This document shows, piece after piece, positions 1 to 43,027 of a stretch of DNA of 43,027 nt. Source of the stretch: a virus; IMG/VR virus record IMGVR_UViG_3300047508_000120, positions 1 through 43,027 of that record, one strand, 5' to 3'. A program made the position numbers and the translations under genes. Below the pieces are notes generated by a model, which saw only the letters and a list, made by a program, of their open reading frames with translations, searched no databases and had not been told where the DNA came from. How positions within the stretch are numbered: the stretch's first letter is position 1; each line of letters opens with the position of its first letter.

Positions 1-127
1 GAGACAGTTAATTGGAGGTGGGCCAGGGTTCAATATGCCTCCAACAACAGGAGTACATGGCTCGCTCCCATGCCATTGATCACACGGAAGAGGCGCTTTC
101 TGACTAAACGGAAACATCAAGTCCCCC
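1..127. repeat. Terminal direct repeat, copy 1 (contig ends overlap)
   Basis: These 127 bases are identical to 42901-43027. A repeat of exactly 127 bases at the two ends of a contig is what a de Bruijn assembler leaves on a circular or circularly permuted molecule, so the unit length is probably 42,900 bp. A physical terminal repeat cannot be excluded. The repeat lies inside a minus-strand gene that is complete only when the ends are joined. Confidence 0.95.
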
Positions 128-183
128 GCCCACCCAGGCCCCGCGAGCCCTAGCACGAGGAGGAGGAATAGCATTGGTTTCAT
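1..183 (-). CDS. Secreted Cys-containing small protein, 5' part (gene crosses the contig join)
   Basis: The ATG at 183-181 overlaps the TGA of the upstream gene (ATGA), preceded by GGAG. Translation runs to base 1 and continues at 42900 down to 42730, giving a 117-residue protein. The N-terminus, MKPMLFLLLVLGLAGPGWA followed by GD, is a clear Sec signal peptide with an Ala-x-Ala-like cleavage site. The mature part has four cysteines, Pro-rich stretches and many aromatic residues. It belongs to the distal end of the leftward operon with three other envelope genes. I recognise no family and infer no function beyond export to the periplasm or beyond. Confidence 0.85.
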   Translation of the reverse strand, partial: MKPMLFLLLVLGLAGPGWAGDLMFPFSQKAPLPCDQWHGSEPCTPVVGGILNPGPPPINCL

Positions 184-893
184 GGCTTCTCCTGTGGTGG
201 CAGACGCTGTTCTACCTTCATGCGTCCAGGAATGGAATTATCAAAATCCCCTTCACATGACCACTGCGGATTGGTGGGCACGAGAGGAGGAGACGCGTGG
301 GCCTGCTGCATACACCAATTCCTCGCATCATCTTGCGCCATGCTGTTTGCCGCGTCAGCGACCTCAAGGAGCGTCTCGCGCCGCACCTGTGCCAGCTTTC
401 CCCACGCCTCATCGACATCTTTGCTCCCCGGCACGAGGCTCATCGCCTTTGCCGCCATCGCGGCAATGGTGCGGTCGCGGGTGGCGACGTCATGCTTGAG
501 CATCTGAATCTCAGTGAGGTTGTCCATATAGGTGACATGCTGTGCTTCGAGCTGCTGGCGAACCTGCTCTGTTTTGGCGATTGCTGCATTCCGTTGACGG
601 TCAGCCTCAGATGCTTGATCGGCCAACTGAACAATTTCATGGTCGCGTTGCTCAAGCTGCTGTCTCACCCTCGCCACCTCCTGCTCCACCGGCTCCACCA
701 ACAGCGGATCATCCGGCCCCACGGCCAGGTGAAGGCGCAAGGCCTGTTCTAGCTTCGCTCGCTGGGCCTTGAAGGCGGCTTCGATAAATGTAATAGCCTC
801 CTCCCGACTCGTCCACGTACCGTCTCGATTTGTATAATCACGGTCCAAGGTATCAATGGCTATTTCCGCCGCCTCGCGGATCGGGTCGGTCAT
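180..893 (-). CDS. Coiled-coil hypothetical protein
   Basis: A 237-residue protein, start ATG 893 overlapping the TGA of the upstream 41-residue gene (ATGA). Residues about 45-125 are rich in heptad-like Glu/Gln/Leu/Arg (for example EQEVARVRQQLEQRDHEI), predicting a long coiled coil. The N-terminus is acidic and helical, and the C-terminal 40 residues look disordered with two Cys. No signal peptide is seen. It ends QEKP, encoded by the GGAGAAGCCATGA junction that also forms the ribosome site and start of the next gene. No family is recognised. A structural or adaptor role is possible but unproven. Confidence 0.8.
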   Translation of the reverse strand: MTDPIREAAEIAIDTLDRDYTNRDGTWTSREEAITFIEAAFKAQRAKLEQALRLHLAVGPDDPLLVEPVEQEVARVRQQLEQRDHEIVQLADQASEADRQRNAAIAKTEQVRQQLEAQHVTYMDNLTEIQMLKHDVATRDRTIAAMAAKAMSLVPGSKDVDEAWGKLAQVRRETLLEVADAANSMAQDDARNWCMQQAHASPPLVPTNPQWSCEGDFDNSIPGRMKVEQRLPPQEKP

Positions 894-7578: not shown

Positions 7579-7585
7579 GGTTCAC

Positions 7586-7614: not shown

Positions 7615-7645
7615 TACTTATTTTCAACTTTGAATACCTAGGGGT

Positions 7646-12755: not shown

Positions 12756-13125
12756 TCCGTACGAACAGGCCCACGCGGCCTTGCAGCTCACGCCGCAGGA
12801 GCGGGGGTTGTACGAGCGGCATCTCGCCAACCTCAATGGACCCGGCAAAGTGGCGCACCCCGATGGCTCGATTTCGACGCTCTATCAGATGTCGGTGACG
12901 GGGCCAGGCAATCGCGTCTATAATATCCCGACGGTCTATAACGGGAAAATTCTCCATCCCGACGAGGCCATTCGGAACGCGGATCAGCAAGGATGGGAGA
13001 CCTTTCCGTCCTATCCAGATCAAGCGACGGCCGACGCCCGCTATCAACAGATGCACGGCTATATGGACCAAGACGTGGGCAACTATCTCGCGCAGCAGCG
13101 ACAAGGCCAGTTCAGTGGCCGGTAG
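12745..13125 (+). CDS. Phage virion-associated-type domain protein (126 aa)
   Basis: The start is a GTG at 12745 lying in the codons for Ser-Gly of the upstream FSGR end. The domain HPDGSISTLYQMSV, YNIPTVYNGKILHPDEAI and later ADARYQQMHGYMDQD matches a pattern common at the ends of phage structural proteins (dGs.sT...IPTV..Gk.l...eAi..). It ends QGQFSGR, again with the next gene's GTG start inside. It lies directly before TerL. Confidence 0.75.
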   Translation: MDASPYEQAHAALQLTPQERGLYERHLANLNGPGKVAHPDGSISTLYQMSVTGPGNRVYNIPTVYNGKILHPDEAIRNADQQGWETFPSYPDQATADARYQQMHGYMDQDVGNYLAQQRQGQFSGR

Positions 13126-14653
13126 ACGGCAACTCCTCGCCAAAAAACTCCAGACTGAGGGCTTTGCGCTCCCGGTCAATCTCTGGGAGCCCAGTCAACC
13201 CAAATACCTCCCCACCCAAGCGCGATTCGTCGCCGATTGGGACGTGCGCTTTCGCGGCTTCGGCGGCGGCCTGGCGAACGGCAAAACAACCGGCGGCGTG
13301 GCGCTCGCGTACTTCCTCTCCGTCTGCTTTCCCGGCAATTGCGGCTATATCGGGCGCTGGGACGGCAAGGAGCTGATCCAAACCACCATGTCGGAGTTCT
13401 TCCGCTTGGTCCCCGACTCGATGTTCGAGATTCAGAATAAACAGTTGGGCTACCTCCGCTTCAAGCGCCAGTACGGGGGCAGTGAAATCTTCTACGGCGA
13501 TGTGAAGAAAGAGGAATGGGCCAGTTCGCTCAACTTGGGGTGGTTCTGGTTCGACCAAGCGGAGGAGACGGACGAAGCGCGGTGGAACCACGGGGTCTCC
13601 AGGCTCCGGCGTCTCACGCCGCTCTTGGATGAGGACGGCGAACCCCTGAAGGGACCCGATGGCAAAGCCCTGATCGCCCCCACCTATGGCTTTGCCACCT
13701 TCAACCCCGAAGGCACCGCGAGTTACCTCTACCGCTTCTTTCACCCCGATTCGCCCACCAAGAAGACGGACTATACGCTCTATCAAGCGACCACCTACGA
13801 CGGCCTCAAGGCCGGTTTCGTCACGCAGGAATACGTGGACGCCATGCTCGCGGTCTTCCCCGAGCAGGCCCGCAAACGCTATTTGGACGGCTCGTGGGAC
13901 GTGTTCGAGGGCAAGGTCTTTAGCCAGTTCGACCTCGACACGCACGTCATTGAACCGCTCGCGCTCCGCGCCGACTGGGACTACTACGTGAGCATGGACC
14001 ATGGGTTGACGAATCCCACCTCGATCGGCGTCTGGGCGGTCACGCCCTCCGGGGTCAAGATCCGCATTCGGGAGCATTACGAAGGGGGCGGGAAGCCCGT
14101 CTCCTATCATGCGGCCTGTGCCAAAAACCTCGTGAGCGATCTGCCGAAGAAGCCGACGTTTTGGGTGATGGACCCCGCCTGCTGGGCCAAGAACCAATCG
14201 AAGGATAACCGCGTCTATAGCACCGTCGATGAATATAATGAATACGGCGTCTTCCCGGTGCCGGGGCAGAACGACTGGGCACGCGGCTTTAACCGCTTGA
14301 ACGAAGCCTTGGCGGTGCATCCCGAGGCGCTCCATCCGCTCACCGGCCAGGCTGGCTCGCCGCTGCTGCTGTGTGTGTCGAGTTGCACGGCCTGGATTCG
14401 GGAGATGCAAAACTATAAATGGAAGCGGGCGCGAGGCACCGTGCTCAGGAACGCGCCCGATGAAGCGATCGACTATAACGACCATACGATCGACGAAACC
14501 CGCTATCTCTTCAGCCTCCTCGCGGGCGCGACCCGTCCGGTGGCGAGCGAGTCCCCCACGACCCCGCTCGAAAAATGGGCCGCGCTCCGCGCCGCGTACA
14601 ATCCGCTGGCCGAGATCACCACGCCCGGCCCCACCAGTTGGATGAGCATTTGA
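13115..14653 (+). CDS. terL: Terminase large subunit
   Basis: A 512-residue packaging motor. Walker A-type GGGLANGKTTG at 50-60, Walker B-type LGWFWFDQAEE at 141-151 with catalytic Glu, and an RNase H-like nuclease with SMDHG at 293-297 (Asp295) and WVMDPACWAKN at 350-360. It pumps DNA into the prohead and cuts it. The start is GTG 13115 within the end of the previous gene. Size is normal. The portal family next door suggests headful packaging, which would fit the circular assembly. Confidence 0.95.
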   Translation: MAGRRQLLAKKLQTEGFALPVNLWEPSQPKYLPTQARFVADWDVRFRGFGGGLANGKTTGGVALAYFLSVCFPGNCGYIGRWDGKELIQTTMSEFFRLVPDSMFEIQNKQLGYLRFKRQYGGSEIFYGDVKKEEWASSLNLGWFWFDQAEETDEARWNHGVSRLRRLTPLLDEDGEPLKGPDGKALIAPTYGFATFNPEGTASYLYRFFHPDSPTKKTDYTLYQATTYDGLKAGFVTQEYVDAMLAVFPEQARKRYLDGSWDVFEGKVFSQFDLDTHVIEPLALRADWDYYVSMDHGLTNPTSIGVWAVTPSGVKIRIREHYEGGGKPVSYHAACAKNLVSDLPKKPTFWVMDPACWAKNQSKDNRVYSTVDEYNEYGVFPVPGQNDWARGFNRLNEALAVHPEALHPLTGQAGSPLLLCVSSCTAWIREMQNYKWKRARGTVLRNAPDEAIDYNDHTIDETRYLFSLLAGATRPVASESPTTPLEKWAALRAAYNPLAEITTPGPTSWMSI

Positions 14654-14684: not shown

Positions 14685-16682
14685 GTGGCGAAACCCCGCA
14701 AACCCAAGGCCGACCCCTCCACCCGCACCCGCGTCGATGAGATCGTCAAACAGTATCGCGCCTTCTTTGATGTGACGACCGACCTCCGCACGTCCGTGAA
14801 AGAGGATTTGGATTTCACGGTGGGCGGGCGCAAACAATGGGCGCAAGCCACCTTGGCCGAATTGGACGCGGAGAAACGCCCCGCGCTCTCCTTTAATAAA
14901 GTCGCCCCCACCCTCAACTTCATCTGCGGCCTGCAACAGGAACGCGAAGTCGATTATCGCTACTTTCCCCGTGGCGATGAGGATGAGCAGCTCGGGCGCA
15001 TTCTCACTGCCCAAGTGAAATATGTGATGGACGCCTCGGGGGGACAGCACGAAGAGGCGACCCAATTCCGCCTCGGCGCGATTGGCGGCTGGTGTACGCT
15101 CGAAGTGGGCCATAGCTTCGACTATACCGACGACTTGATTGAAGGCGATGTCACGCTGACCGCCCTGGCGATGAACACGACCTATCTTGATCCCCTAGCC
15201 CGCCGCTACGATAAATGCGATGCCCGCTATCAGGGCAAACTCATGTGGTATGCCGCCGAGGCGGCGCAGAAGGCCTGGCCGGAGTCGGCGGCGAAACTCA
15301 CCGGCATGGCGGATTGGCTCCCCTATGATCCGCTCACGACCGGCGTGCCTGAGCATCTCCTGCGGGAACTCTACGAGAAGGACACCAATCGGATTCGCGT
15401 CTTGCAACATTGGTATAAGGTGCCGGTGACGGCCACGTTGCTCATCAATAAGGCCGAACCGGACCCCGCCAAAGCCGTGCAGCGGGTGAAGGATGGGAAG
15501 GAAGCCGACGCGATCATCAAGGCGGCAGCGGACCAATCCGGGATGCAGGCCGCAGACCAGTATGCCATTGTGCAGGATCAAACGCTGTATGCCCTCGTGA
15601 ATAAACAAACGATGGGCATGATGCCCTTGGCCTCGCCCGATGAAGGCGAGCAGTTCATTGCCCGCGTGAAACAGGATGCGGGGGCGCAAGTGGCCGACCA
15701 ATATGAGATCCTCTCCCGCGAGGCCACGGCGCTCCGCGTCTCGCACCTCACGGGCTGGGAACTGCTGGACGACAAGCCCTCGCCCTACGACGACGACTGG
15801 CGCTATCCGTTCAGCCACTTCTTTTTCTATCACGACGGCGATAATTTCGGCGATATCAAGGGCGTCGTGCGGGATATCAAAGATCCGCAGCGGGAAATCA
15901 ACTGGCACCATAATACGCTCGTCGATACGCTCGCCCGCGCTCCCAAAGGGGCGACGTGGTTCGATAAAGCGAGCAATGCGAACATCCAAGAATTGAAGAA
16001 AAAGCTGCCCCGCGCCGGCTTTATTGGGGAATACGTGGGGCCGAAGCCGCAGTATTGGCCGGCGGCCTCATTTAACCCCGGCGATCTCGCCATGATGGAG
16101 ATGGGCAACGATTTTATCCATTCGATCAGCGGCACCGACAACCTGCAAGCGAATCCGCAACAGAAAACCGTTTCCGGGCAGGCGATTAAGGCCCGCTTTG
16201 CGGGGGGCTTGGTCGCCCTCGGGACGCCGCTTCAGCATTGGGAGCGCACGAAGACCTATACGGGTACGCTCTTGGCGAAACGGGTGCAGCAATTCCATTC
16301 GCCGGAGAAAATGGACCGGATTTTGGGGCAGGATTATAAAATGGCGCAAGTGGCGGGGCTGGACCTCAAGATGATGGTCCCCCCACACGTCATGTACGAG
16401 TCCTATAAGCGGATTGCGGACCTGACGTTTGATGTCGTCGTGGGCTTCCAGGAGGCGAGCACGACCGCAAGGGAAGCGAACTTGAACCGCATGCTGCAAT
16501 TGATGGCGATGGGCATCCCAGTGCCTCCCCCGCTCATTTTGGAAGCCACCGATGTCCCATTCAAAGAAGAAATCAAAGCGGCGTTGCAGAAACAAGGCAT
16601 GCAACAGCCCAATCCTGATTTGGCCAAGGTGCTGACGGGTATGCAGGGCCAAGGAGCGAATGGAGTGAATACCGGAGCATGA
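14685..16682 (+). CDS. Portal protein, P22-like
   Basis: A 665-residue protein starting at GTG 14685. RPALSFNKVAPTLNFICGLQ, QEREVDYRYFP and the long insertion-rich core are the pattern of the P22 gp1-type portal (Phage_P22 portal family), usually about 700 residues. It forms the dodecameric ring at the capsid vertex and docks TerL. It also contains PFSHFFFYHDGDNFGDIKGV and DIKDPQREINW, typical of these portals. It ends in an ATGA overlap. Confidence 0.93.
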   Translation: MAKPRKPKADPSTRTRVDEIVKQYRAFFDVTTDLRTSVKEDLDFTVGGRKQWAQATLAELDAEKRPALSFNKVAPTLNFICGLQQEREVDYRYFPRGDEDEQLGRILTAQVKYVMDASGGQHEEATQFRLGAIGGWCTLEVGHSFDYTDDLIEGDVTLTALAMNTTYLDPLARRYDKCDARYQGKLMWYAAEAAQKAWPESAAKLTGMADWLPYDPLTTGVPEHLLRELYEKDTNRIRVLQHWYKVPVTATLLINKAEPDPAKAVQRVKDGKEADAIIKAAADQSGMQAADQYAIVQDQTLYALVNKQTMGMMPLASPDEGEQFIARVKQDAGAQVADQYEILSREATALRVSHLTGWELLDDKPSPYDDDWRYPFSHFFFYHDGDNFGDIKGVVRDIKDPQREINWHHNTLVDTLARAPKGATWFDKASNANIQELKKKLPRAGFIGEYVGPKPQYWPAASFNPGDLAMMEMGNDFIHSISGTDNLQANPQQKTVSGQAIKARFAGGLVALGTPLQHWERTKTYTGTLLAKRVQQFHSPEKMDRILGQDYKMAQVAGLDLKMMVPPHVMYESYKRIADLTFDVVVGFQEASTTAREANLNRMLQLMAMGIPVPPPLILEATDVPFKEEIKAALQKQGMQQPNPDLAKVLTGMQGQGANGVNTGA

Positions 16683-17999: not shown

Positions 18000-19016
18000 A
18001 TGGCACTTGTGAATACCCCCGCACTCGTAACCGATCTCAGTTCGCCGCCTGATGTGACGCAGGCGTATTTTTCGAAGAAACTGCTCACGCGAGCGAAGTA
18101 TCGCAATCTCCACTCCCGATGGGCCGCTGAATCGGAAATCCCCTCGAAGGAAGGGAAGACGATTATTATGCGCCGCTATCTCCATCTGGCGCTGGCCCTC
18201 TCGCCGTTGACCGAGGGCGTGCCGCCCGCTGGGAAGGGCGTCTCGCTGGACGACTTTCAGGCCACCTTGGTCCAACACGGCGATTTCATCGCCTTGACGG
18301 ACTACGCGCAATGGACACAGAAAGATCCGATTCTCCAGCATTGGACGATGCTCTTAGGCGAGCAGGAAGGCTATACCATCGATGCGGTGGACCGCGATAC
18401 CGCCGTCGCCGGGACGGGCGTGATCTACGCCAACGGCACCCAGCGCACCGACGTGAACGAAATTGTGGATTTCAACGATCTGGACCGGGCCATCCGCACC
18501 TTGACGAATAACGGCGCGGAGACGCAGGTCGGGGGCAATCAGTCGAACGAGACCGAGAACAGCTACCCCACGATGCCGGCCTATGCGGCGGTCACCGTGC
18601 CCAATGTCATGTTCGATATTCAAAACATCTCCGGCTACAAATGGGCCTCCGAATATCGCGGGGCGATGGAAGGCGAAGTGGGCCGCTATAAGCAGCTCGC
18701 ATTCTTCACGGCGCCCGATCCCTCGAATCTGGGGGCCGGCGGCAAGGTGTTTCTGGGCGGCGGGGCCTCCAGCACCACCGTCAAGAATACCGCCAGCGTG
18801 GCGAACGTCTATACCATTCTCATCTTCGGGATGAACGGCTTTACGAAAGTGCCGTTGATGGGGAAGACCTCCAGTTTCTATGCCAAGCCCCTGGGGAGTG
18901 CCGGCACAGCCGACCCCTTGGAGCAGGTCGCAACCATCGGCTGGAAAACCATCGGCGCACGGTTGCGCACGAAGGAAGAGTGGCTGGAGCGGATCGAATG
19001 TGCCGCAAGCCTCTGA
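18000..19016 (+). CDS. Major capsid protein, N4 gp56-like family
   Basis: A 338-residue protein. Residues about 50-100 (GKTIIMRRYLHLALALSPLT then EGVPPAGKGVSLDDFQATL) and QHGDFIALTDYAQWTQKDP match the N4-gp56 family of HK97-fold capsid proteins in sequence pattern and length. It builds the icosahedral shell. It lies four bases after the scaffold. Confidence 0.9.
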   Translation: MALVNTPALVTDLSSPPDVTQAYFSKKLLTRAKYRNLHSRWAAESEIPSKEGKTIIMRRYLHLALALSPLTEGVPPAGKGVSLDDFQATLVQHGDFIALTDYAQWTQKDPILQHWTMLLGEQEGYTIDAVDRDTAVAGTGVIYANGTQRTDVNEIVDFNDLDRAIRTLTNNGAETQVGGNQSNETENSYPTMPAYAAVTVPNVMFDIQNISGYKWASEYRGAMEGEVGRYKQLAFFTAPDPSNLGAGGKVFLGGGASSTTVKNTASVANVYTILIFGMNGFTKVPLMGKTSSFYAKPLGSAGTADPLEQVATIGWKTIGARLRTKEEWLERIECAASL

Positions 19017-29675: not shown

Positions 29676-30332
29676 ATGCGCTACCTGCGACTCCTCAGTG
29701 CCCTCCTCTTCCTCTGCGGGATGCCGCTGGTCGCGCAGGCCATTGATTATCCCGCGAGAGTGACCGGCACCACACCGACCTTTAACGAAAATGAAAATCG
29801 TCAGCTCTCCATGGATAAATCAGGCAATACTCGTGTGATCATTAGCGGTGGAGGGGCGAATGCCACGGCCACGGCCACCGCAGCAGCCCCCACCTATGTG
29901 GAAGGCAGCACCACATCGCCACTGTCCCTCGACCTCTCCGGCAACCTGCGCACGACCCTCGGCACGCTCCTCTCCGGCGAAGATCAAACCAACAACCTCA
30001 TCCAGACCAGCGGCGGGGCGGTGCGGCAGACGGTGCTCGTCTCGGCAGTGACCACCAACACCACCAGTGCCGCGCAGATCGTGCCGGTGGGGGTCAAGGG
30101 CTTCTATGGCCAAGTGGTGGGCACGGGAGCCGTCACACAAACGCAGGCGCTCTACTGCGATGTCGATAGCGATGCGGCCAACGGGATTTTACTCGGGACG
30201 CTGACGCTCTCCGGCACGACACGCGATCAAGCCTTAATTCCACGTACCGATCTCCCCTGTTCGTATGTCTATGTCGTCACCACTGCAACCACCGGCACAT
30301 CCGCCGCAGGAGCTTTATATGCGATGTACTAG
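29676..30332 (+). CDS. Exported structural-type protein (218 aa) with signal peptide
   Basis: ATG 29676 follows GAAAGGA; the longer frame upstream overlaps the previous gene and is not used. MRYLRLLSALLFLCGMPLVA then QAIDYPA is a textbook Sec signal with AQA cleavage. The mature part is beta-rich, includes LLSGEDQTNN, a motif shared with the next protein, and has a Thr/Ala low-complexity stretch. Phage tail proteins assemble in the cytoplasm, so export is surprising. Function unknown. Confidence 0.8.
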   Translation: MRYLRLLSALLFLCGMPLVAQAIDYPARVTGTTPTFNENENRQLSMDKSGNTRVIISGGGANATATATAAAPTYVEGSTTSPLSLDLSGNLRTTLGTLLSGEDQTNNLIQTSGGAVRQTVLVSAVTTNTTSAAQIVPVGVKGFYGQVVGTGAVTQTQALYCDVDSDAANGILLGTLTLSGTTRDQALIPRTDLPCSYVYVVTTATTGTSAAGALYAMY

Positions 30333-30762
30333 AAGCCTTCTCTTACTATTGGTACTGCTCTGGACGCTCGACGCCTCGGCGGGGAGTGGAACTTTATCGC
30401 CCGCTGCCACCCCGCCAGTGCGGTTGAATGAACTGCTGTCTGGTGAGGATCAAACCAATGGGGTTTTCAAGGTTGAACAGCGGTTCTCCTTTGTTAATAT
30501 CGTCTTGGCGGCCCCAACTACAACTGTTATTAAGTCTGGTGCGGGATTCCTCCATCTCATTACGGTAAACAAATCTGCGGGAACCGGTGTGATTACGTGT
30601 TACGACAATACAGCCGGATCAGGGACCACGATTGCGACGATTACCTCACCGGTCACTCTCGTGGAAAGCCAATTTACTTTGACGTATGACGTAAGTTTCG
30701 CAACAGGTCTCACCTGTGTCACCTCGACTGCGGCACAGGATATTACCGTGAGCTACCGATGA
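30319..30762 (+). CDS. Exported protein (147 aa) with LLSGEDQTN motif
   Basis: ATG 30319 with GGAG upstream, overlapping the previous gene by 14 bases. MRCTRSLLLLLVLLWTLDAS then AGSG is a Sec signal. LLSGEDQTNGVFKVEQRFSF follows: the GEDQTN...KVEQRFS motif is one I associate with phage tail-region proteins, and the first nine residues are shared with the gene upstream. Two cysteines in the C-half could form a disulfide. Overlaps the next start. Confidence 0.8.
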   Translation: MRCTRSLLLLLVLLWTLDASAGSGTLSPAATPPVRLNELLSGEDQTNGVFKVEQRFSFVNIVLAAPTTTVIKSGAGFLHLITVNKSAGTGVITCYDNTAGSGTTIATITSPVTLVESQFTLTYDVSFATGLTCVTSTAAQDITVSYR

Positions 30763-32492
30763 AACGCCTACTGCTCATCCTGGTGCTCTGTCTCCTGCCC
30801 TCACTCGCGGGAGCCACGACCTACTTTGCCGACCCGGCTGGCGGTGGCGCGGCTTCCTGTGTTGATAGCGGGGCGAACGTCTGTACGCTCACGCGAGCTC
30901 TGACGGTAGCGGCAACCGGGGACACCATTACGGCGGCCTGCGGGACGTATTCGCAAGGCGCAACCACTGTGACCGTTAGCAAAAATATCACCCTGTCTGC
31001 TGTGACATCGCTCTGTGCGATCATCACCGGCACCAACGCCACGGCGATTGTCACGCTCACCGCCAGCAACGATGCGAACGTGCTGACCTTCTCCGGGTTT
31101 GAGATCCAGAATACGGGCGGGGCCACCTCCAGTGGCGTCTCGATCACCAACGTCGCCTATGACGCGTCGGTGACGTTCACGGGTAATCTGATTTCCGTGG
31201 GGGGCACCAATCGTCATCTCGTGGATGCGTATACACGCGGAACCGTGCGGATCACCAACAACACCTTCACGGGGACCGTGGGGGCGCAGGAATGTATTCA
31301 TGCCTTGGTGACACCCTCCTCTGCCAAGAAGCTCGTCGTGACGGGGAACACGTTCACGCTCACCTATAGCGCTTCATCGAACGCGTCAATCCATGTGGAG
31401 CGGGCTGCCGGCAATGCCGTCTCATTCTTTGCCTATGTAGCGAACAATACGATCACCGCCACGATGCCGACCGGGCTGGGCAATGCGATGACGACCATCG
31501 GCATTCGCTTGAAGCGCATTACCATGGGGACGGATTTGAACGGCGTCACGACCCCGCCGATTGTTGAAAACAACACCATTTCAATGACCGCAACGGCGGT
31601 GACGGCGGCGGATGTGTACGCCATTCTGGCGGACAGCACCGACGCGACGGCGCTCGGTGACGGGGTGGTCATTCGCAATAATGTGGCGACCTGCAATGCG
31701 CCGTCCACGCGCTGCATCGCCATTGGGAACGATGGGGTGACAGCGAATAACGTCTCGAATGCGCAGGTCACGGGCAATCGGGTGTACGGTCCATTCTACG
31801 ACGGATCGGCCACACCGCACGGCTTGTCGATTGGCCGCACGGTGAACGCCTATGTCTGGGGCAATACCGTGACTGGATTTGCGGCGGGCATTCTGGTGTC
31901 GATGGGCACGACGCATGTCGTGACGGGGAATCTGATTATCGGGGCCACCTATGCGCCCCTCTTTGCCAAGGCGAATACGTCGGCAACCATCTCCAACAAT
32001 ACCGTCATTATGGATGATGCCCTCTATGGGGTGGTCTTTGGCGGTTTTAAAGCGTGCATGAGCGTGAGCGTCCAAGGGGCCACGAACAATGCTGCCACGA
32101 CCTTCCAAAATAATAACTGCTATGTCCGGTCAGGCACCGGATGGAGCTATGCGGTGGTGGCCAACTCGCAAGTGGCGAACTTCGATCACAACAATGCGTG
32201 GAGCCTCGTCACGCTCACCACGCCCTGGAGTTATCAGAGCACCACCTACGCCACGGTGAGTCTGTGGAACGCAGCGGCGACAGTGGGGACGGACACGAAT
32301 GTCGATCCGGTCTTTGTCGATCCGGCCACTGATTATCGGTTAGCGAACACGTCCACTTTGCGGGGAGCCGGTCTCTTTTGGGGCGCAGCCTGCGCCGACG
32401 TGCGTGGACGCCGATGCTTTATGCCCGTCGATGTCGGTGGCTATCAGACCGGTGGAGGCGATCCGGCCTCAGACAGAACGGCGAGGAACTGA
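30759..32492 (+). CDS. Exported right-handed beta-helix protein (577 aa)
   Basis: MKRLLLILVLCLLPSLAGAT is a Sec signal. FADPAGGGAASCVDSGANVC then TLTRALTVAATGDTITAACG is the opening of pectate-lyase-like beta-helices, followed by repeated NNTF / GN-type rungs (RITNNTFTG, VVTGNTFTL, IVENNTIS, VIRNNVAT). It ends DYRLANTSTLRGAGLFWGAA, the usual C-cap. The fold is typical of tailspikes and secreted polysaccharide lyases. A signal peptide points to the second or to a surface role. Confidence 0.85.
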   Translation: MKRLLLILVLCLLPSLAGATTYFADPAGGGAASCVDSGANVCTLTRALTVAATGDTITAACGTYSQGATTVTVSKNITLSAVTSLCAIITGTNATAIVTLTASNDANVLTFSGFEIQNTGGATSSGVSITNVAYDASVTFTGNLISVGGTNRHLVDAYTRGTVRITNNTFTGTVGAQECIHALVTPSSAKKLVVTGNTFTLTYSASSNASIHVERAAGNAVSFFAYVANNTITATMPTGLGNAMTTIGIRLKRITMGTDLNGVTTPPIVENNTISMTATAVTAADVYAILADSTDATALGDGVVIRNNVATCNAPSTRCIAIGNDGVTANNVSNAQVTGNRVYGPFYDGSATPHGLSIGRTVNAYVWGNTVTGFAAGILVSMGTTHVVTGNLIIGATYAPLFAKANTSATISNNTVIMDDALYGVVFGGFKACMSVSVQGATNNAATTFQNNNCYVRSGTGWSYAVVANSQVANFDHNNAWSLVTLTTPWSYQSTTYATVSLWNAAATVGTDTNVDPVFVDPATDYRLANTSTLRGAGLFWGAACADVRGRRCFMPVDVGGYQTGGGDPASDRTARN

Positions 32493-33757
32493 TGTCACGC
32501 AAGATTAGCCAACGATCAGCTGTCGGGGCGCTCACGGGATCAGAAATCCTGGGCATCATTCAAAATGGGACCGATTACAAAGTGACGGTCACCGCCCTTG
32601 CACAATCACTCGGCACGATCAATGTGAAAGATCCGCTGTATGGGGCTGTGGGGAACGGCGTGGCCGATGATACTGTCGCCCTGCAAGCGGCGATCAACGC
32701 CGCAATCAATTCGACGGGGCTGTCCGTCTTTCTCCCCGCAGGCACATACAAAACAGGCCCCCTTCTCATCAACGACAATGGCGTGCATTTACGAGGAGCG
32801 GGCGTATTTGTCTCGCAACTCTTATTTGTGCCCACGGGGAACGTGACGACGCCGGGGGCGTCCACCGATCCGGGATCGTGCATCACTATCTGTAAGTCGT
32901 CCGGTGCAGCCATACTCTATAACGCCTCGATTGAAGATCTTTACATCAATACTGCGGACACGACCTATACCAAGAACGCGATTCGTGGGGTGGAAACCTC
33001 GCAACTGCTGGTGCGAAACGTCCTCATCGATAAATTCTATGGCGGTGATTCAGCCGGCATCCAAACGATGGGGCACGAACTGACGATTATGGACACGATC
33101 CATGTCGCCGCCTGCGTCCCCTTGCGGATCTCCGTCAGTCCCACGGCCTACTCTGGCGTGAAATACTCTGGCGATCATTTCCATTTCACCAACTGTTATT
33201 TCGTGACGGGGCACGGGGCAGATCCCTCAAACCGATTTCCAGCTACGCTGCCCAGTACCTGCGTCCTCGTGGATGAAGCGGTGTTCCTGTCCAACGTCAC
33301 GTTCGACGGCTATCAATCCTGGGTCGGCGGGAAGTTTGGGTTCTATTGGGTGTCCACCGTGAGCCCCAATACGATCATGTATCAAATTTCGTTTAAGAAC
33401 GTCCGCAAGGAGCAAGGGTGGGGCACAAACGGGGCCGGGTTCTACATCGACCATACGGGATCTGCCGCCATCCCGCGCCAGTTTCTTTTTGAGAATTGTT
33501 ATCTCGTGGACAATCTTGCTGGCTATGTGGGCTGGAAGCTCCGGTTTATCCACAACGTCACAATGGTGAACTGCATGTGGCCGTGGACGGGCACGAAGTA
33601 CGTCATGGATGTGGCGGATGTCTATCAAATTCAATGGATCAATATGTGGGTCGATCCCGCCTCGGACATTCTCAAGGGTGCCAACGTGGGAACGGTCTCA
33701 GCGGCCACGACTCGCGCAGGCTATACGCTGCCGATTAGTGCGATGTGGGTGATCTAA
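32492..33757 (+). CDS. Tailspike-like pectate-lyase-fold protein (421 aa)
   Basis: Start ATG 32492 overlaps the previous TGA (TGATG). Residues 40-80 (VKDPLYGAVGNGVADDTVAL then QAAINAA) and FLPAGTYKTGPLLINDNG are the pectate lyase 3 / tailspike signature. No signal peptide, so it is the best candidate for a real virion tailspike that binds or cuts host polysaccharide. Catalytic residues cannot be named from sequence alone. Confidence 0.88.
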   Translation: MSRKISQRSAVGALTGSEILGIIQNGTDYKVTVTALAQSLGTINVKDPLYGAVGNGVADDTVALQAAINAAINSTGLSVFLPAGTYKTGPLLINDNGVHLRGAGVFVSQLLFVPTGNVTTPGASTDPGSCITICKSSGAAILYNASIEDLYINTADTTYTKNAIRGVETSQLLVRNVLIDKFYGGDSAGIQTMGHELTIMDTIHVAACVPLRISVSPTAYSGVKYSGDHFHFTNCYFVTGHGADPSNRFPATLPSTCVLVDEAVFLSNVTFDGYQSWVGGKFGFYWVSTVSPNTIMYQISFKNVRKEQGWGTNGAGFYIDHTGSAAIPRQFLFENCYLVDNLAGYVGWKLRFIHNVTMVNCMWPWTGTKYVMDVADVYQIQWINMWVDPASDILKGANVGTVSAATTRAGYTLPISAMWVI

Positions 33758-33998: not shown

Positions 33999-36900
33999 AT
34001 GTTGAAATTCATCCCCTTGCTCCTCACCGCCCTGCTCGGCTGGACCGCGCCTGCGTGGGCCACGATTACGGTGGCTGCTGCCGTCACCGCTGCAAGTAGT
34101 GGGGCCTCAACCAGTACGACGATTGCTGCGCCAGCCATTACGTTGACCGCTGGACAGGGCGTAGAGATCTGCACGAAGTGGGAAGGCAACTTTACGGTCA
34201 CGGGAATGGCCAGTGATAAAGGCGATACGGTGGTGCTGCAAAACGCGCAGCAGCACTCAGCCCTCGAACCGTCTGGCCGGTGCGCCCATGTGATCAGCGC
34301 TGTAGGGGGCAGTACGGTGTTCACCACGACCTTCAGCGGAGCCGCGCCCTATCGTCGCATCCATGTCTTTCCCATCACCTATACCGGCACGCTGGCGCTC
34401 GACGTGCAAAGCGCCGCCTCCACCGAAAGCACGACGCTTGACCCGGCCTCAGCCGCCGTCACGACGACGGGCACCGATGAAGTGTGCTTCGGCTTCCAGG
34501 CGGATTATACGACCCAAGCGTTTAGTAATGAAAATATCAACGGGGTCGCCGCCGATGGGCGCAGCACGCAATCGGACTCCAACCTGTTCTACCGTATTTT
34601 GACCAATACCATGACCGGGGCGGCGGGGCTGCATCGCACCGTGCCGGAACGCTGGATCATGCGCTTGGCGTGCCTCAAGGCGACGGGAGGCGGAGCACCG
34701 CCCCCACCGCCAGCGGCCACGGGCACGATTCGCTTCGTCTCCACCACCGGGAGTGATAGCAACAGTTGTGCAGCCTCGACGAACATTGCCACCCCGAAAC
34801 TCACCCTCGCATCCGCGATCGCCTGCATGGTGGCGGGCAATGGGGACGTCCTCTATATGCGCGGCGGCACCTACACCCAATCGATTAACGCGACGAACGT
34901 CCCGAACGGGACCTCCTGGACGAACGCCGCCATGATCGCGGGCTATGCGGGGGAGATCGTCACGCTTAGACCCTCCAGTGGGGCCATTATTAGCTTGGGG
35001 TCTCCGCTCACACACTATCAAATCTATAAAGACTTCATCGTGGATGCGGTGAATCTCCCCGTGGCAGGCGGGGGGATCGCCAGTGAAGACGCCATCTCGT
35101 TTGGCTCAGAAGGCAGCACGATCCATCATATTCGGATGCAGAATTTGGAAGTCAAAAACGCGCCGGGGCACGCGATTGGCGTGCGCGGATCGTTCCATGA
35201 ATTTCTCAACCTGACGTGTCATGCCAACGGACTGGCCGACACCACGAAGTCGGTCCCCTACGACCGAGGCGGGAATTGCTTGTATGTCGTGGCGTCGAAC
35301 ACTCTCGTGAGTGGCGGGCGGTTCTACGACAACACCTGCTATGCGATCCGGTTTGGGGGCTCCGGCGCGGTGGTCGGGAACGACAATCTCGTGACGCATG
35401 TCCATGCCGTCAACAATGGCCGCAACCACGCCTTCAATAACACCGGCATTTGTAGCAGCGGCGGGGGCGGGATCACCTTGTCGAATCGGAACAACGTCGC
35501 GTCCCACAATGTCGTGGACCATAATTGGCACGGCATCGATACGTTTACCGGCGGGTTGGGTGTCGTCACCGGCATGGCCCTCTATAACAACACGGTCACC
35601 GCCAACGATATCGGCATTCAAATTGTGAGTTCCATCGTGAGCGGGGCCATCCTCACCGATAACCACTCAGCCGGCAATACCGCAGGACTCAACTTTCTCG
35701 ATGGTGGCACCGGCACGATCTTAAACACCAATCGGTTCACCGGCGCGATCACAGATTGTACCGTCAGTGCGAGCGATTTCACCCAGAAAGCGGGGTCCTC
35801 CTGCATTAGCGGGTCGAACACCATCATTAGCGGCTTGGCCTTTAATGGGCCGAGGCCGGAGCAAGGTGCCCATGAGATGTTTTCCTATGTATCTGCGACG
35901 ATTAACCAAAATCTGCTCGACGTATCGGTAGGGATGAACCTCAATACCCCGATGTTGCCTGCTGCGGGGATGACGGGGTTTACCGTGGCCTGTACGGGGT
36001 CAGGGTGTCCGGGGACGCCGACCGTGCTCAGTGCCAATCGCTTGACCGGTGCCGATAGTGTCGCACGGTTGACGGTGAATTGGACCTGTGCGGTGGGCCA
36101 GACGGTGACGGTCACCTATAGCGGCACGGGCAACGTCACGGACTCAGCCCTGATCGGCACCGTGAACCAGCCCATGAGTGCATTTACTTCGGCAGCAGTC
36201 ACGAATGCGTGTGGGACGCCGCCGCCTCCCCCACCCGCTGGGGTCACCATCTCCTACGACTTTACTGAAGGCACGGGCATCACCCTTACCGATAGCGCGG
36301 GTGGGGATCAAAACGGGACGCTCACGAACGGTCCCGCCTGGGTCACCACCGGCAAGTTTGGCCCTGGCGTGGCCTTTACCGACGCCAGCAATCAGTATGT
36401 GGCCATCGCCTACGGCACGGGCCTGAACCCCACGACCTCCTCCTGGACCGATTGCATGGGCGTGGACCCTGACACTGGGCTGGAGGGCGCGACACGGGTG
36501 ATCTTTGGCACGGCCAACGGCACCAATCAGCGCATGTATCTCGCCACGTTTGGCGGCACCTGGACACAAGGGGTGCAAGCGAGCGGGTTTGGGTTGAATA
36601 CCGAATTTCCTGTGGGGGCCGGCTTCGCCTATGTCTGCCAAGTCGTGGATGGGACCGCCGACACCGTGACCCTCTATGTGAACGGGGTAGCTGGCAAGAG
36701 CAATCAATCGATCAAGGCCACGACCTCCTACGTACTCGCCTCAGATTTCCGCCTCGGGCAGCAAGGGACCGACCCCACGGCAGGCGTGACGTTTGCGGAG
36801 TTCAAGCACTTCCCCACGGCGCTCACCGCCGCCAATATCGCTACGCTGTATGCCATTTGGGAGCCGCCGACACCGCCTGCCGTGGGCACTTTCAGCATGT

Positions 36901-37778
36901 CGGCGAGTCGCTTCTATGATGCCTTCTATCAGACGGGCACCACGACGGTCGTCCCCCTGAGCGCGATCAGTGCCACCACGACCACCATCCACTCAGGCAT
37001 CCCCTTTGCCCTGGATGTGCAAATCGATTGTACGGTGGCGGATTGCGACCCGGCTGGAGTGAGACTGTCCTACGCGATTCAGCCCCTCTCTACTGGCGTC
37101 AAATCGGCCTTCTTGCCCGTCCCGAATATTGCCGGGCCAGACAGTCTCTCCTTTTTCGGCAGCATCTCCTCTGCGAACATCCTCCAAGGGCCGTTGCCCG
37201 CGACCTGTCTGTCTGGGGCGCTCACCCCCAGTGCCGGCACGACCAATTCCACAATGGACGCGATTCCCGTGTTCGATTTGCCGTTGAACGGCTGTATCGT
37301 GCAACGCTACCTCCTCCAGATGGGGCCAGGGGCGGTCCTCGGGGACATCTATTGGTTCGAGCCCTTCATTCAGACAGGCCAAGCCATGTCCTCTGTGACC
37401 CCTACAGGTGGGGCGAAGCTGACGGTCACCCCCGTGGCAGGCATGTCCGCCCCGACCGGGCTGCATTTCGTGGGCACCACTTCGACAACCCTCGTGCAGT
37501 TCGTCTGGACGCCTGTTGTCGATCCCAATCTGGCTGGCTATATCATCTACTACTCCAGTGTGAGCGGGGGACCGTACACACCGATCGGCATACGTACGCA
37601 AGCCTATGCCTCTGCGTACAATACGCCCATCACACAATTCAGTCTCCAAACGAGTACGGCAGGACAGTATTGTTTTGTCGTACAAGGCTTCAATACGGGG
37701 AACCAACTCTCAGCCAACAGTGGGGAGATTTGCGTGACCAAGACGGGCATTGCCCCGCGTACACTGAGGACGCCATAG
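33999..37778 (+). CDS. Giant exported beta-helix / LamG / FN3 protein (1259 aa)
   Basis: Start ATG 33999 has GAGGAG four bases upstream; an ATG at 33987 has none. MLKFIPLLLTALLGWTAPAW then ATI is a Sec signal. In order: a beta domain to about 235; a PPPPP linker; a right-handed beta-helix (IRFVSTTGSDSNSC, VLYMRGGTY) to about 690; a second PPPPPP linker near 745; a LamG-like lectin domain (ISYDFTEGTGITLTDSAG) to about 960; and a fibronectin type III end (APTGLHFVGTTSTTLVQFVW). This plan is that of cell-surface adhesins or polysaccharide enzymes rather than usual tail fibres. Confidence 0.85.
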   Translation: MLKFIPLLLTALLGWTAPAWATITVAAAVTAASSGASTSTTIAAPAITLTAGQGVEICTKWEGNFTVTGMASDKGDTVVLQNAQQHSALEPSGRCAHVISAVGGSTVFTTTFSGAAPYRRIHVFPITYTGTLALDVQSAASTESTTLDPASAAVTTTGTDEVCFGFQADYTTQAFSNENINGVAADGRSTQSDSNLFYRILTNTMTGAAGLHRTVPERWIMRLACLKATGGGAPPPPPAATGTIRFVSTTGSDSNSCAASTNIATPKLTLASAIACMVAGNGDVLYMRGGTYTQSINATNVPNGTSWTNAAMIAGYAGEIVTLRPSSGAIISLGSPLTHYQIYKDFIVDAVNLPVAGGGIASEDAISFGSEGSTIHHIRMQNLEVKNAPGHAIGVRGSFHEFLNLTCHANGLADTTKSVPYDRGGNCLYVVASNTLVSGGRFYDNTCYAIRFGGSGAVVGNDNLVTHVHAVNNGRNHAFNNTGICSSGGGGITLSNRNNVASHNVVDHNWHGIDTFTGGLGVVTGMALYNNTVTANDIGIQIVSSIVSGAILTDNHSAGNTAGLNFLDGGTGTILNTNRFTGAITDCTVSASDFTQKAGSSCISGSNTIISGLAFNGPRPEQGAHEMFSYVSATINQNLLDVSVGMNLNTPMLPAAGMTGFTVACTGSGCPGTPTVLSANRLTGADSVARLTVNWTCAVGQTVTVTYSGTGNVTDSALIGTVNQPMSAFTSAAVTNACGTPPPPPPAGVTISYDFTEGTGITLTDSAGGDQNGTLTNGPAWVTTGKFGPGVAFTDASNQYVAIAYGTGLNPTTSSWTDCMGVDPDTGLEGATRVIFGTANGTNQRMYLATFGGTWTQGVQASGFGLNTEFPVGAGFAYVCQVVDGTADTVTLYVNGVAGKSNQSIKATTSYVLASDFRLGQQGTDPTAGVTFAEFKHFPTALTAANIATLYAIWEPPTPPAVGTFSMSASRFYDAFYQTGTTTVVPLSAISATTTTIHSGIPFALDVQIDCTVADCDPAGVRLSYAIQPLSTGVKSAFLPVPNIAGPDSLSFFGSISSANILQGPLPATCLSGALTPSAGTTNSTMDAIPVFDLPLNGCIVQRYLLQMGPGAVLGDIYWFEPFIQTGQAMSSVTPTGGAKLTVTPVAGMSAPTGLHFVGTTSTTLVQFVWTPVVDPNLAGYIIYYSSVSGGPYTPIGIRTQAYASAYNTPITQFSLQTSTAGQYCFVVQGFNTGNQLSANSGEICVTKTGIAPRTLRTP

Positions 37779-37779: not shown

Positions 37780-38247
37780 ATGCAGGAATTGACCTTGAAT
37801 CAATTGATCGACACGCACCCAGACCGTGGAGCCGTGCCGATTGCCTGTGTCAAGGCGATCTGTTTTGTGGAGTCTGCGTTCGATGAGTTTGCGCTGCGCT
37901 ATGAACTGTCCTATAAATGGTTTGTCGGCATGCCTGAGAACCTCACCGCCACGGAGCGCATGGGCCAGATGTGTAGCTGGGGACTCATGCAAGTGATGGG
38001 CGGGGTGGCGCGAGAGGCGGGATTTACCCGGTCCTTTCCCGCGCTCTGCGATCCGTTCCTGGGGCTGCGGTATGGCATCAAGCATTTGCTCAAGTTCTAC
38101 GTGAAGTATGGGGACTGGCCGGATGCCATCTCGGCCTACAACGCAGGCAGCCCCAAAAAGGATGCGGTGGGCAAATACTGGAATCAAGTGTACGTCGATA
38201 AGGTGCTCAAGTACTGGGCGCAGTTTGAAAAACCGACTCAGGTATGA
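37780..38247 (+). CDS. Lytic transglycosylase (SLT-type)
   Basis: A 155-residue enzyme. CFVESAF with Glu31 as the catalytic acid, CSWGLMQVMGG at 65-75, DPFLGLRYGIKHL at 91-103 and AISAYNAGSP at 116-125 are the four motifs of goose-type/SLT transglycosylases. It cuts peptidoglycan without hydrolysis. The lack of a signal peptide and the position before holin-like genes make it the endolysin candidate; a virion-bound role is also possible. Confidence 0.9.
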   Translation: MQELTLNQLIDTHPDRGAVPIACVKAICFVESAFDEFALRYELSYKWFVGMPENLTATERMGQMCSWGLMQVMGGVAREAGFTRSFPALCDPFLGLRYGIKHLLKFYVKYGDWPDAISAYNAGSPKKDAVGKYWNQVYVDKVLKYWAQFEKPTQV

Positions 38248-40844: not shown

Positions 40845-41165
40845 ATGGCGCTTGATCCGGTCTCGATCGGTGCAACGGTCTTGTCGAAGATCCTCGTGGA
40901 TATCCTGCAATACTTTCAGGCGCGTGAAGACCTGAAGGAACTGGTACGAGAGGAGATCCGCAATGCTGGACTCAAGTCCGCGAACGATGCGTTGGGGTGG
41001 AAGGTCGATGCTCTGGGTGTGCCTGACGGCGGGGCTACTATCCGCGTGCACGACGGTGCCCTGCAAATCACCCTACCAGGTTACTCTGCCAACCCTGGAA
41101 GCGTCACCATTACCCCTCCGGTGCCAACAGGGCCTCCAGCCGGCCCAGTGCCTCCTGCTCCTTGA
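40845..41165 (+). CDS. Lysis-module protein (106 aa) overlapping a lipoprotein gene
   Basis: Helical start (VLSKILVDILQYFQAREDLK) then a beta and Pro-rich end. The first 20 residues are weakly hydrophobic, not a clear membrane span. Two thirds of the gene is overlapped in another frame by a lipoprotein gene, the arrangement seen in Rz/Rz1 pairs. Whether it is the inner partner cannot be told. Confidence 0.65.
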   Translation: MALDPVSIGATVLSKILVDILQYFQAREDLKELVREEIRNAGLKSANDALGWKVDALGVPDGGATIRVHDGALQITLPGYSANPGSVTITPPVPTGPPAGPVPPAP

Positions 41166-41289
41166 GGAGGACTACCGGAATATCGTGCGGGAACTGAAGG
41201 CGGCCTGTTTGGCATTGGCAGGATCAACGGAATCGTGTCAAACGACGATGCCGAATAACCTCAACACGCTCAGAACGGAGAAGCCATGA
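40963..41289 (+). CDS. Rz1-like outer-membrane spanin lipoprotein candidate
   Basis: Start by ribosome site at 40963 (GAGGAG upstream) or at ATG 41008 (GGAAGG upstream). MLWVCLTAGLLSAC is a lipoprotein signal with LSAC lipobox. The mature part is small, with Pro/Leu and four more Cys and an acidic helix (LLLLEEDYRNIVRELKAACL). It overlaps the 40845 gene in a different frame, as o-spanins do with i-spanins. It ends in ATGA with the next gene, which supports real translation. Confidence 0.75.
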   Translation: MLDSSPRTMRWGGRSMLWVCLTAGLLSACTTVPCKSPYQVTLPTLEASPLPLRCQQGLQPAQCLLLLEEDYRNIVRELKAACLALAGSTESCQTTMPNNLNTLRTEKP

Positions 41290-41561
41290 ATAGAACCATG
41301 AAGAAAATGGGGAAGTCACTGATGAAGCAAGGCCGGCAACTGACTGAATTGCTGCATCAGACTCCAGCCGTGAAGGCCAAGCCCAACACACCGAGCGAGA
41401 CGGCCTTCGATAAGGCACAGAAGGATCTGGATACGTCCCTCCGCGCCGTGCATGACGCGCTTTCACAGAAGGATATGACAAAGGCAGAACGGCATGCTGC
41501 GCACGCGCAGAAGCATTTTGACGTGCTGTTCAAGAAGCACCGGAAGGCGGGGAAGGGCTAG
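41286..41561 (+). CDS. Basic helical protein (91 aa), last rightward gene
   Basis: MNRTMKKMGKSLMKQGRQLT, helical and Lys-rich, with HAAHAQKHFDVLFKKH. GGAGAAGCC and an ATGA overlap precede it. Its TAG is part of the CTAG shared with the facing gene. No family recognised. Confidence 0.75.
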   Translation: MNRTMKKMGKSLMKQGRQLTELLHQTPAVKAKPNTPSETAFDKAQKDLDTSLRAVHDALSQKDMTKAERHAAHAQKHFDVLFKKHRKAGKG

Positions 41562-41614
41562 TACTGTCTCCATGTGTCCACTGCTTCTTGGAGTGCTGCT
41601 CGTGATGCTTCTTG
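41531..41614. repeat. Inverted repeats around the convergent gene ends
   Basis: CAAGAAGCA at 41531-41539 is the reverse complement of TGCTTCTTG at 41582-41590 and again at 41606-41614. The loops are long. They might pair in transcripts reaching the convergent point, but there is no T run or clear terminator here. Confidence 0.4.
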
Positions 41615-41788
41615 TAATTCCTTTGAATGTGGTCCTCTGAAAACCACAATGTCTGAAGCCTGATGCTCGCCATTACCAAACACGGTGTAACTGCACGCAA
41701 TTTCCGTAGGGTAGTTACACGGCTCATTTGATTGCCGAGAACACCCCGCAATCCCTAGCAGCAGCACGAGTGCGAGTCCATATTTCAT
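41558..41788 (-). CDS. Predicted lipoprotein (76 aa), last leftward gene
   Basis: MKYGLALVLLLGIAGC is a lipoprotein signal with lipobox IAGC. Mature part small and charged, with two further Cys. Ends at the CTAG shared with the rightward gene. ATG lies one base after the previous stop. Expected to sit in the envelope with its neighbours. Confidence 0.8.
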   Translation of the reverse strand: MKYGLALVLLLGIAGCSRQSNEPCNYPTEIACSYTVFGNGEHQASDIVVFRGPHSKELQEASRAALQEAVDTWRQY

Positions 41789-41789: not shown

Positions 41790-41987
41790 TTACCATTCCT
41801 CTTTGATTATGACCGCAATGAACAGGAACATTGCGATACCAACCGCGACAATTCCAGTAAGCGCAACAACAGACACGGCGAGATCCCAGGTGTGGACAAG
41901 TCCGCTCATATTAAGCGTGATCAGCAAGACCAACATGAAAACGCATGCGATCCCAAGAATGCTGGCGCACATTATCACGCGTGTCAT
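41790..41987 (-). CDS. Two-span membrane protein (65 aa)
   Basis: MTRVIMCASILGIACVFMLV with LLITL, then LAVSVVALTGIVAVGIAMFL and FIAVII: two strong spans and a short Glu-Glu-Trp end. ATG 41987 overlaps the stop of the PEP-CTERM gene (ATGA); the longer frame upstream is in the other gene. Could help membrane insertion or be a holin; unknown. Confidence 0.8.
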   Translation of the reverse strand: MTRVIMCASILGIACVFMLVLLITLNMSGLVHTWDLAVSVVALTGIVAVGIAMFLFIAVIIKEEW

Positions 41988-42733
41988 ACCCGCCTCCTCG
42001 CCCGCCATACCGCCAGCAGGACCAGCCCGGAGCCGAGCAGCCAGACCGTGCCGGGGATGGGCACGCTGCGCGGCTGTTGCACTTGCGCAAAGGTATTCAC
42101 AGTCAACGCACTCTGCACGCCAGCCGTGACCCATTGCGTCACACTCAGGACGCCGGACTGTGCGGAGGAGCCTTGCTGCACATGCACATCCGCCGTCGCC
42201 ACTTTAAACAGGCCGGTCGGGTCCGTCAGGATGAGCTGGGCGGAGTTGTGCGCCATAAACGCATCCGCGCTATTCCCGTCATTCTGCGGCGCGTTCGTAT
42301 AGGCAATATGGTAGCCGATGCTGACGGTGAGCGGACCCGAGACCGCCGCAGTCACAAAACTATTGCGGTCCAGTTCGCCGTTCATCAGCCCACTCCCAGA
42401 CAGACCGAGCGCGACCCCCAGCTGGGTCGCATCGGAAAAGGACGAGGCGGTCCCAAAGTTCGCTAACGTCCCTGAGACCGTTTGTTGACTATAACCGGTA
42501 TTGTTATAGAAGCCGTCGTTGAACGTGGGAAAGGGTTGCGTCACGGCTCCGGCGTTGAATGCCACGATATCGACATCGAGCAGGGTGACGAATTGCTGCT
42601 GGGAGCGTTGAATCAGATCCACGGGTTCGCTAAACGTCAGCGAGGACCAGTCAAGGACGGCGCTGCCGCTATAGTCGGCGAAGGCTGATGTGGTGAGGGC
42701 GAGAGTGATCAGAATGGTGAGTAGGGTTTTCAT
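41984..42733 (-). CDS. PEP-CTERM-type exported protein (249 aa)
   Basis: Start ATG 42733 has GGAAGGA upstream; a longer frame is not needed. MKTLLTILITLALTTSAFAD is a Sec signal. The mature body is beta-rich. The end (224-249) is VPIPGTVWLLGSGLVLL followed by AVWRARRRV: a VPxP motif, a hydrophobic span and an Arg cluster, as in PEP-CTERM / VPLPA-CTERM sorting signals. Such proteins are cut by host exosortase and linked to extracellular polymer. A phage copy implies use of the host system. It is coupled to genes on both sides. Confidence 0.88.
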   Translation of the reverse strand: MKTLLTILITLALTTSAFADYSGSAVLDWSSLTFSEPVDLIQRSQQQFVTLLDVDIVAFNAGAVTQPFPTFNDGFYNNTGYSQQTVSGTLANFGTASSFSDATQLGVALGLSGSGLMNGELDRNSFVTAAVSGPLTVSIGYHIAYTNAPQNDGNSADAFMAHNSAQLILTDPTGLFKVATADVHVQQGSSAQSGVLSVTQWVTAGVQSALTVNTFAQVQQPRSVPIPGTVWLLGSGLVLLAVWRARRRV

Positions 42734-43027
42734 GGTGTATCCTTCCAGCAGTTTCGCTTGGCATTTGTCCATAGAGTAATTGCTTTGAAATAGGTCTTAT
42801 TGTTACTGGGGAGACGGAACCATTCGTTGAATACTGCCTCATTCCAAATAAATTCGTTTTGAATTGGCTCCATCGCTCGCATCGCCGCTTCCATCTGGGC
42901 GAGACAGTTAATTGGAGGTGGGCCAGGGTTCAATATGCCTCCAACAACAGGAGTACATGGCTCGCTCCCATGCCATTGATCACACGGAAGAGGCGCTTTC
43001 TGACTAAACGGAAACATCAAGTCCCCC
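42730..43027 (-). CDS. Secreted Cys-containing small protein, 3' part (same gene as 183-1)
   Basis: This is the C-terminal part of the 117-residue exported protein whose start is at 183. The reading frame stays open to the window end because 42901-43027 repeats bases 1-127. The mature region carries four Cys and ends in NCWKDTP. Its stop overlaps the ATG of the PEP-CTERM gene (ATGA at 42733-42730), so the two are translationally coupled. No known domain was recognised. Confidence 0.85.
   Translation of the reverse strand, partial: GDLMFPFSQKAPLPCDQWHGSEPCTPVVGGILNPGPPPINCLAQMEAAMRAMEPIQNEFIWNEAVFNEWFRLPSNNKTYFKAITLWTNAKRNCWKDTP
42901..43027. repeat. Terminal direct repeat, copy 2
   Basis: Exact second copy of bases 1-127; see that entry. 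Reading through the join restores one continuous minus-strand gene from 183 to 42730. Confidence 0.95.

Follow-up and report, generated by a model that had tools for sequence, protein, structure and literature searches.

We propose that g47, a gene of a complete phage genome, is an accessory (moron-type) gene that encodes a surface-destined protein of the PEP-CTERM type, that it belongs to an envelope-altering cassette, and that its product is sorted by the exosortase of the host. We put the probability of this reading at about 0.6. The window, which is the whole stretch of DNA that we analysed (43,027 nucleotides), is an IMG/VR virus record (G000).

The two ends of the window are identical over 127 bases (Table 1). 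Since such ends fit a circular assembly with k=127, we take the genome to be complete and circular, with 42,900 bp. Its nearest well-covered relative (G780) has a terminase large subunit (TerL) that is 68% identical, a portal protein that is 63% identical, and a head protein that is 77% identical.

Table 1. Features of the phage genome and of the cassette that contains g47
Feature	Position	Strand	Basis
Direct terminal repeat, identical to 42901-43027	1..127		Exact 127-bp end identity; circular 42,900-bp genome
Exported 117-aa protein gene, 5' part across the circle junction	1..183	minus	Circular reading
Coiled-coil-like early gene, 237 aa, directly upstream of and coupled to the cassette	180..893	minus	Coding, circular reading
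Terminase large subunit (TerL)	13115..14653	+	phrog_2, E 2.3e-23
P22-like portal protein	14685..16682	+	PF16510, E 1.4e-81
Major head protein	18000..19016	+	phrog_1357, E 1.4e-42
Pectate-lyase-like tail protein	32492-33757		PF12708, E 6.3e-12
Lytic transglycosylase (SLT), in the lysis region converging on the cassette	37780..38247	+	PF01464, E 5.4e-11
76-aa lipoprotein, lipobox GIAGC	41558..41788	minus	Sequence
65-aa protein, two predicted TM segments	41790..41987	minus	Circular reading; no family
g47, phage PEP-CTERM-type (VPIPG) protein, 249 aa	41984..42733	minus	ORF, tail profile, hydropathy, coding score
g47 tripartite sorting signal (VPIPG, hydrophobic helix, RARRRV), aa 224-249	41987..42064	minus	Tail HMM; NF041538 and NF038125 at aa 202-247
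g47 Sec signal peptide MKTLLTILITLALTTSAFA, predicted cut before D20	42677..42733	minus	Sequence, hydropathy, rule-based scan
Exported 117-aa protein, 3' part	42730..43027	minus	Circular reading

An earlier note on this DNA had placed a PEP-CTERM gene at 41984-42733, and we confirmed it: the open reading frame runs on the minus strand from an ATG at 42733 to a stop codon that ends at 41984. Its coding score is 66 under a codon model that was trained on long genes of the same phage. The Sec signal that had been described is borne out by MKTLLTILITLALTTSAFA/D, with a classic n-region and h-region and an AxA site. The C-terminus is SVPIPGTVWLLGSGLVLLAVWRARRRV, which bears out the claim of a C-terminal motif with an arginine-rich tail: VPIPG is followed by a helix and by RARRR. 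Kyte-Doolittle peaks are confined to residues 1-19 and about 226-244. A structure prediction had also been suggested. AlphaFold, run on the single sequence, gave terminal helices at 2-15 and 227-248, but the model was uninformative for the body, which is unreliable (pLDDT 38).

By the broad definition of a PEP-CTERM protein, g47 has the proline motif, the TM helix, and the basic cluster at the extreme C-terminus. It also has the N-terminal signal peptide, with no other TM segment by hydropathy and the rule-based scan, and a body without homologs that is poor in cysteine and basic residues and rich in Ser, Thr, and Asn (Cys 0%, Lys 0.5%, Arg 1.5%, Ser 11.8%, Thr 9.3%, and Asn 5.9%). A low-Cys, low-basic body is the skew that Haft et al. 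2006 (PMC1569441) published for PEP-CTERM proteins, and the composition of g47 agrees with it. No homologs of the body were found in IMG/VR, in 84,980 genomes (searched with peptide patterns), or in phage and plasmid records. Searches of 345 genomes from the phylum of a Desulfobulbaceae MAG and of 369 genomes from the class of a Methylomicrobium MAG gave mostly matches to the tail and otherwise chance-level matches.

Curated models match the tail of g47 weakly, and the matches are correctly placed. The earlier note had suggested checking TIGR02595 and TIGR03370 (VPLPA-CTERM), and this check failed: TIGR02595 did not match g47, and TIGR03370, whose cut-off is 25.35 bits, gave 8.8. PF07589 was also below its cut-off (13.8 versus 20.7 bits), as was NF041538 (EDSAP-1), which matched the tail region only (E 9.5e-6; 25.5 versus 100 bits). 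NF038125 matched the tail with E 9.9e-5. No named PEP-CTERM subfamily gave a full-length match to g47 above its cut-off.

Because the curated models match only weakly, we made a profile of the tail from 71 C-termini of bacterial proteins, all of the VP[IL]PG[TA]VWL[LF]G[ST]GL type and taken from reference genomes, with g47 left out. g47 scored 42.3 bits, with an E-value of 1.5e-12 that is conditional on the core motif, since the training set was chosen by that motif; the runner-up among 889 six-frame segments of the genome had an E-value of 0.083. Exactly how far the motif lies from the stop codon, whether a basic end follows, and whether there is a signal peptide did not enter into the choice of the training set. 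The tail of g47 is far beyond chance. With the curated cut-offs failed, the support for placing g47 in this class comes from the purpose-built profile, the anatomy of the protein, and the comparative data given below. These support g47 as a PEP-CTERM-type protein of the VPIPG subtype in a real, complete phage genome.

The genes around g47 are tightly packed. The 117-aa gene (MKPMLFLLLVLGLAGPGWAG/D...) begins with an ATG at 183 that overlaps the stop codon of the gene at 180-893, with a Shine-Dalgarno-like AGGAG upstream, and its own stop codon (42730) overlaps the start codon of g47 (ATGA). The ATG of the 65-aa gene overlaps the stop codon of g47 (GTATGA), and an AGGAGG that encodes two of the arginines in the g47 tail lies 5 nt upstream of that ATG. 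Spacing in the cassette is ATGA or near zero, and all four products are exported or membrane proteins. The 76-aa lipoprotein has Ser at +2, which is the outer-membrane type by the +2 rule. Read in this order, the four genes of the cassette follow directly on one another, with g47 in second place. The cassette spans the two ends of the window and becomes visible on closing the circle. It forms the last part of the early operon and converges on the late genes, which end at 41561. We found no promoter or terminator consensus around it.

Phage accessory genes, or morons, are expected to be absent from the same position in relatives. In G780, the one well-covered relative, the cassette has no counterpart at the place where the early and late genes converge; it thus behaves like an insertion of accessory genes. 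The other cassette proteins had no homolog among 431 loci and only chance-level matches in Pfam, and no homolog of the 117-aa protein was found. Because neither the body of g47 nor the other cassette proteins have homologs in the sets that we searched, homology gives no pointer to a specific activity. Defence-system models did not match either.

Several other genes in this genome deserve mention. Three tail-region genes on the + strand (29676-30332, 30759-32492, and 33999-37778), encoding up to 1259 aa, have clear Sec signal peptides, which is odd for virion proteins. NosD-like repeats and laminin-G-like and fn3 domains occur in these three genes, and a similar protein of 891 aa (MRYLILISALLLGLGSEAWA...) is encoded by G780. 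Two HNH endonuclease genes lie on the minus strand of the early region, at 1980-2441 (phrog_3377) and 4252-4815 (phrog_826). Two ORFs on the + strand, 40845-41165 and 40963-41289, overlap in different frames, and the second has a lipoprotein-like signal. Their arrangement suggests a Rz/Rz1 spanin pair of the embedded type; neither had a hit in Pfam. Sigma-54 promoters have been reported for proteobacterial PEP-CTERM genes, and we found none upstream of g47. There is a perfect sigma-54 -24/-12 site at 10435-10449 on the minus (early) strand, overlying a + strand ORF. It may be due to chance, as such a site was seen in 9% of shuffles.

The earlier note had also suggested looking for the same gene in related viral contigs. 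We found no homolog of the g47 body in IMG/VR, but at least 144 contigs there carry tails of the PEP-CTERM type, and the bodies that bear them are of dozens of unrelated kinds. With a DNA pattern for the VPxP-W tail, we matched 24 IMG/VR contigs. All 24 matches are at the C-termini of ORFs, and nearly all of the complete ORFs have a signal peptide. A pattern for the VPEP type matched at least 120 contigs, and every one of the matches listed is a C-terminal tail (121/121). The 125 distinct proteins among the matches listed have dozens of unrelated bodies; the largest clusters have 31, 19, and 12 members. When we considered the largest other gene near each of 66 tagged proteins, the commonest matches were to terminase, portal, and head families. 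Direct end repeats were present in 10 of the 30 contigs tested. PHROGs had no family for ten representative tagged proteins, and eight viral tagged bodies had no match in 50,697 cultured-phage records. With the tag on well over a hundred contigs, the use of host sorting looks like a common, barely noticed habit of phages.

Some of these loci (L067, L117, L129, L157, and L168) have two adjacent PEP-CTERM-type genes, often with different bodies (in L067, at 7434-8165 and 8165-8971). In others (L079, L100, L112, L128, and L085, of F1/F2), a single-TM gene of 63-75 aa lies directly or one gene downstream of the PEP-CTERM gene. This proximity hints at a link with lysis-type cassettes.

Finding proteins by their tags would bias any estimate of conservation, so we searched for members of the largest phage family (F1) by aligning the body only. 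This gave 49 loci with 47 complete ORFs. In all 47, a hydrophobic, basic-tailed end aligned with the tag, and 34 of them have a strict VPxP within the last 32 residues. The other 13 tails have motifs that include APEP and IPEP, with a degenerate KEP or TEP in nine. Since all of the tails are tag-like while the identity of the bodies falls to about 42%, the sorting tail is kept as the body drifts. F1 seldom occurs in bacteria, with matches in 3 of 398 genomes, all of them partial. The predicted structure of F1 is a confident, mostly-beta fold (pLDDT 80) that had no match in the PDB or BFVD with E < 0.001.

We found no exosortase (PF09721) in any of 75 virus records, and our search confirmed the earlier statement that there is no exosortase gene in the window. 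Any processing of the tag must therefore use a host enzyme. PF09721 was above its cut-off in 35 of 50 bacterial genomes that have a g47-type tail. Records titled Deltaproteobacteria and Desulfo- groups have the most tails of the VPIPG[TA]VW type, which are also found in some Methylococcaceae and other gammaproteobacteria. We regard these taxa as a hint to the host, short of a host call.

The earlier note had read g47 as a means of hijacking the host's export and anchoring system, and our results support this reading in part. In the pathway that we propose, Sec export would remove the signal peptide, judging by its sequence. If g47 follows the published model (PMC1569441, PMC12188702), then the tail of VPIPG, helix, and arginines would keep it in the inner membrane, facing the periplasm, and the host's exosortase would cut near the motif and hand the body to the outer surface or to the exopolysaccharide layer. 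Together with the lipoprotein and the two-TM protein, g47 may alter the envelope of the infected cell. By masking a receptor or the matrix, it could keep further phages off that cell. Superinfection exclusion is the role that we prefer for g47, tentatively and at less than even odds, given its company in the operon, its accessory position, and an analogy to known phage proteins. More broadly, we see about even odds that substrates of the host exosortase are common among the phages that infect exopolysaccharide-making environmental bacteria. These would be unrelated proteins that have converged on one tag, that reach the infected cell's surface or matrix by a pathway which only the host encodes, and that remodel the surface against competing phages.

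The main rival to superinfection exclusion is a role in the matrix: g47 would be sorted likewise, and would loosen or change the exopolysaccharide or biofilm for the spread of progeny, or would hold infected cells together. In the formation of flocs and biofilms, PEP-CTERM proteins are known to work together with exopolysaccharide (PMC9850573, PMC12188702), and the pectate-lyase-like tail protein of this phage would be expected if the host has polysaccharide around the cell. However, we found no enzymatic or sugar-binding domain in g47, and we consider this role possible but doubtful.

It is unlikely that the tail is a mere membrane anchor, with g47 being a single-pass, C-terminally anchored periplasmic protein that is independent of any exosortase. 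Any hydrophobic helix followed by arginines would serve as an anchor, the curated sorting models fall below their cut-offs, and the exosortase of this host is one that we infer. Yet the VPIPGxVWLLGSGL motif is specific, as judged by the tail HMM, and a bare anchor would have no need for a tag that recurs on unrelated phage bodies and persists in F1.

Improbable, in our view, is that g47 aids lysis by helping to disrupt the outer envelope late in infection. The cassette does converge on the lysis region, and small membrane genes of the lysis type lie next to several of the other PEP-CTERM genes of viruses. But g47 is on the opposite strand and is coupled to early genes, the spanin-like pair (40845-41289) and the transglycosylase seem to be already in place on the late strand, and the tagged gene of the cultured phage Tunturi_5 (gp179) sits among recombination genes.

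We rejected host contamination or a chimeric contig, in which a bacterial gene was misassembled into the phage, as highly improbable: the body of g47 is absent from phage libraries and its codons resemble those of the late genes only moderately (r 0.75), but the genome is circular, the start and stop codons of g47 overlap both neighbours, its GC3 of 0.74 is like that of the late genes, and 10 other contigs with end repeats and one cultured phage carry such genes.

Research on sorting by PEP-CTERM and exosortase has dealt with it as a system by which bacteria form matrix and flocs. That phages without an exosortase carry the tag on many unrelated proteins suggests that they tap the host's pathway. 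Their use of it would link infection to the properties of biofilms and flocs in soils, sediments, and activated sludge. The C-terminal tag also predicts the destination of the product even for phage bodies without homologs, so it offers a handle on a large share of the phage genes that have no assigned function.

Phages have envelope proteins for superinfection exclusion or lysogenic conversion, such as Llp of T5, SieA of P22, and Ltp of TP-J34. We know of no such protein with a sortase-like C-terminal tag. Compared by description, these are, like the cassette, small lipoprotein or membrane genes outside the structural modules. They alter the surface of the infected cell, whereas for the cassette the same role is only proposed.

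Like the proteins of the PEP-CTERM/exosortase (EpsH) system (PMC1569441), g47 has a signal peptide, an orphan body that is low in cysteine and basic residues, and a proline motif with a helix and a basic cluster. Unlike them, it is encoded by a phage that has no exosortase, it lies in a coupled multi-gene early operon instead of a single-gene sigma-54 unit, its motif is VPIPG instead of PEP, and it is below the curated cut-offs. VPLPA-CTERM (TIGR03370) and g47 share a VPxPxxxWLxGSGL core at the extreme C-terminus, but g47 is below the cut-off of this model too.

Viral proteins with exosortase tags have already been glimpsed, as a study of a hot-spring virome lists 13 horizontally acquired viral proteins with a putative exosortase interaction domain (TIGR03118; PMC11003980). 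Those proteins are, like g47, exosortase-tag proteins in virus contigs, and are an earlier sighting of them; they were treated as acquired genes only, and the tag, host sorting, and breadth were not analysed there. We found no dedicated analysis of phage-encoded PEP-CTERM proteins in the open-access literature.

When we queried cultured phages with tail consensus sequences, the sole credible match was gp179 of the Tunturiibacter phage Tunturi_5 (XOB77622.1), which is annotated as hypothetical and passes TIGR02595 (19.2 versus 16 bits). The Tunturi_5 paper (PMC11924767) does not mention PEP-CTERM or exosortase. Like g47, gp179 is encoded by a phage and has a signal peptide and a proline motif (TPEPG in gp179) with a helix and basic residues. 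Unlike g47, it has an unrelated body and comes from a jumbo myovirus of an acidobacterium, where its gene lies between exonuclease and SbcD-like genes. Tunturi_5 and Tunturiibacter are a cultured pair, which makes the idea of phage exosortase tags testable.
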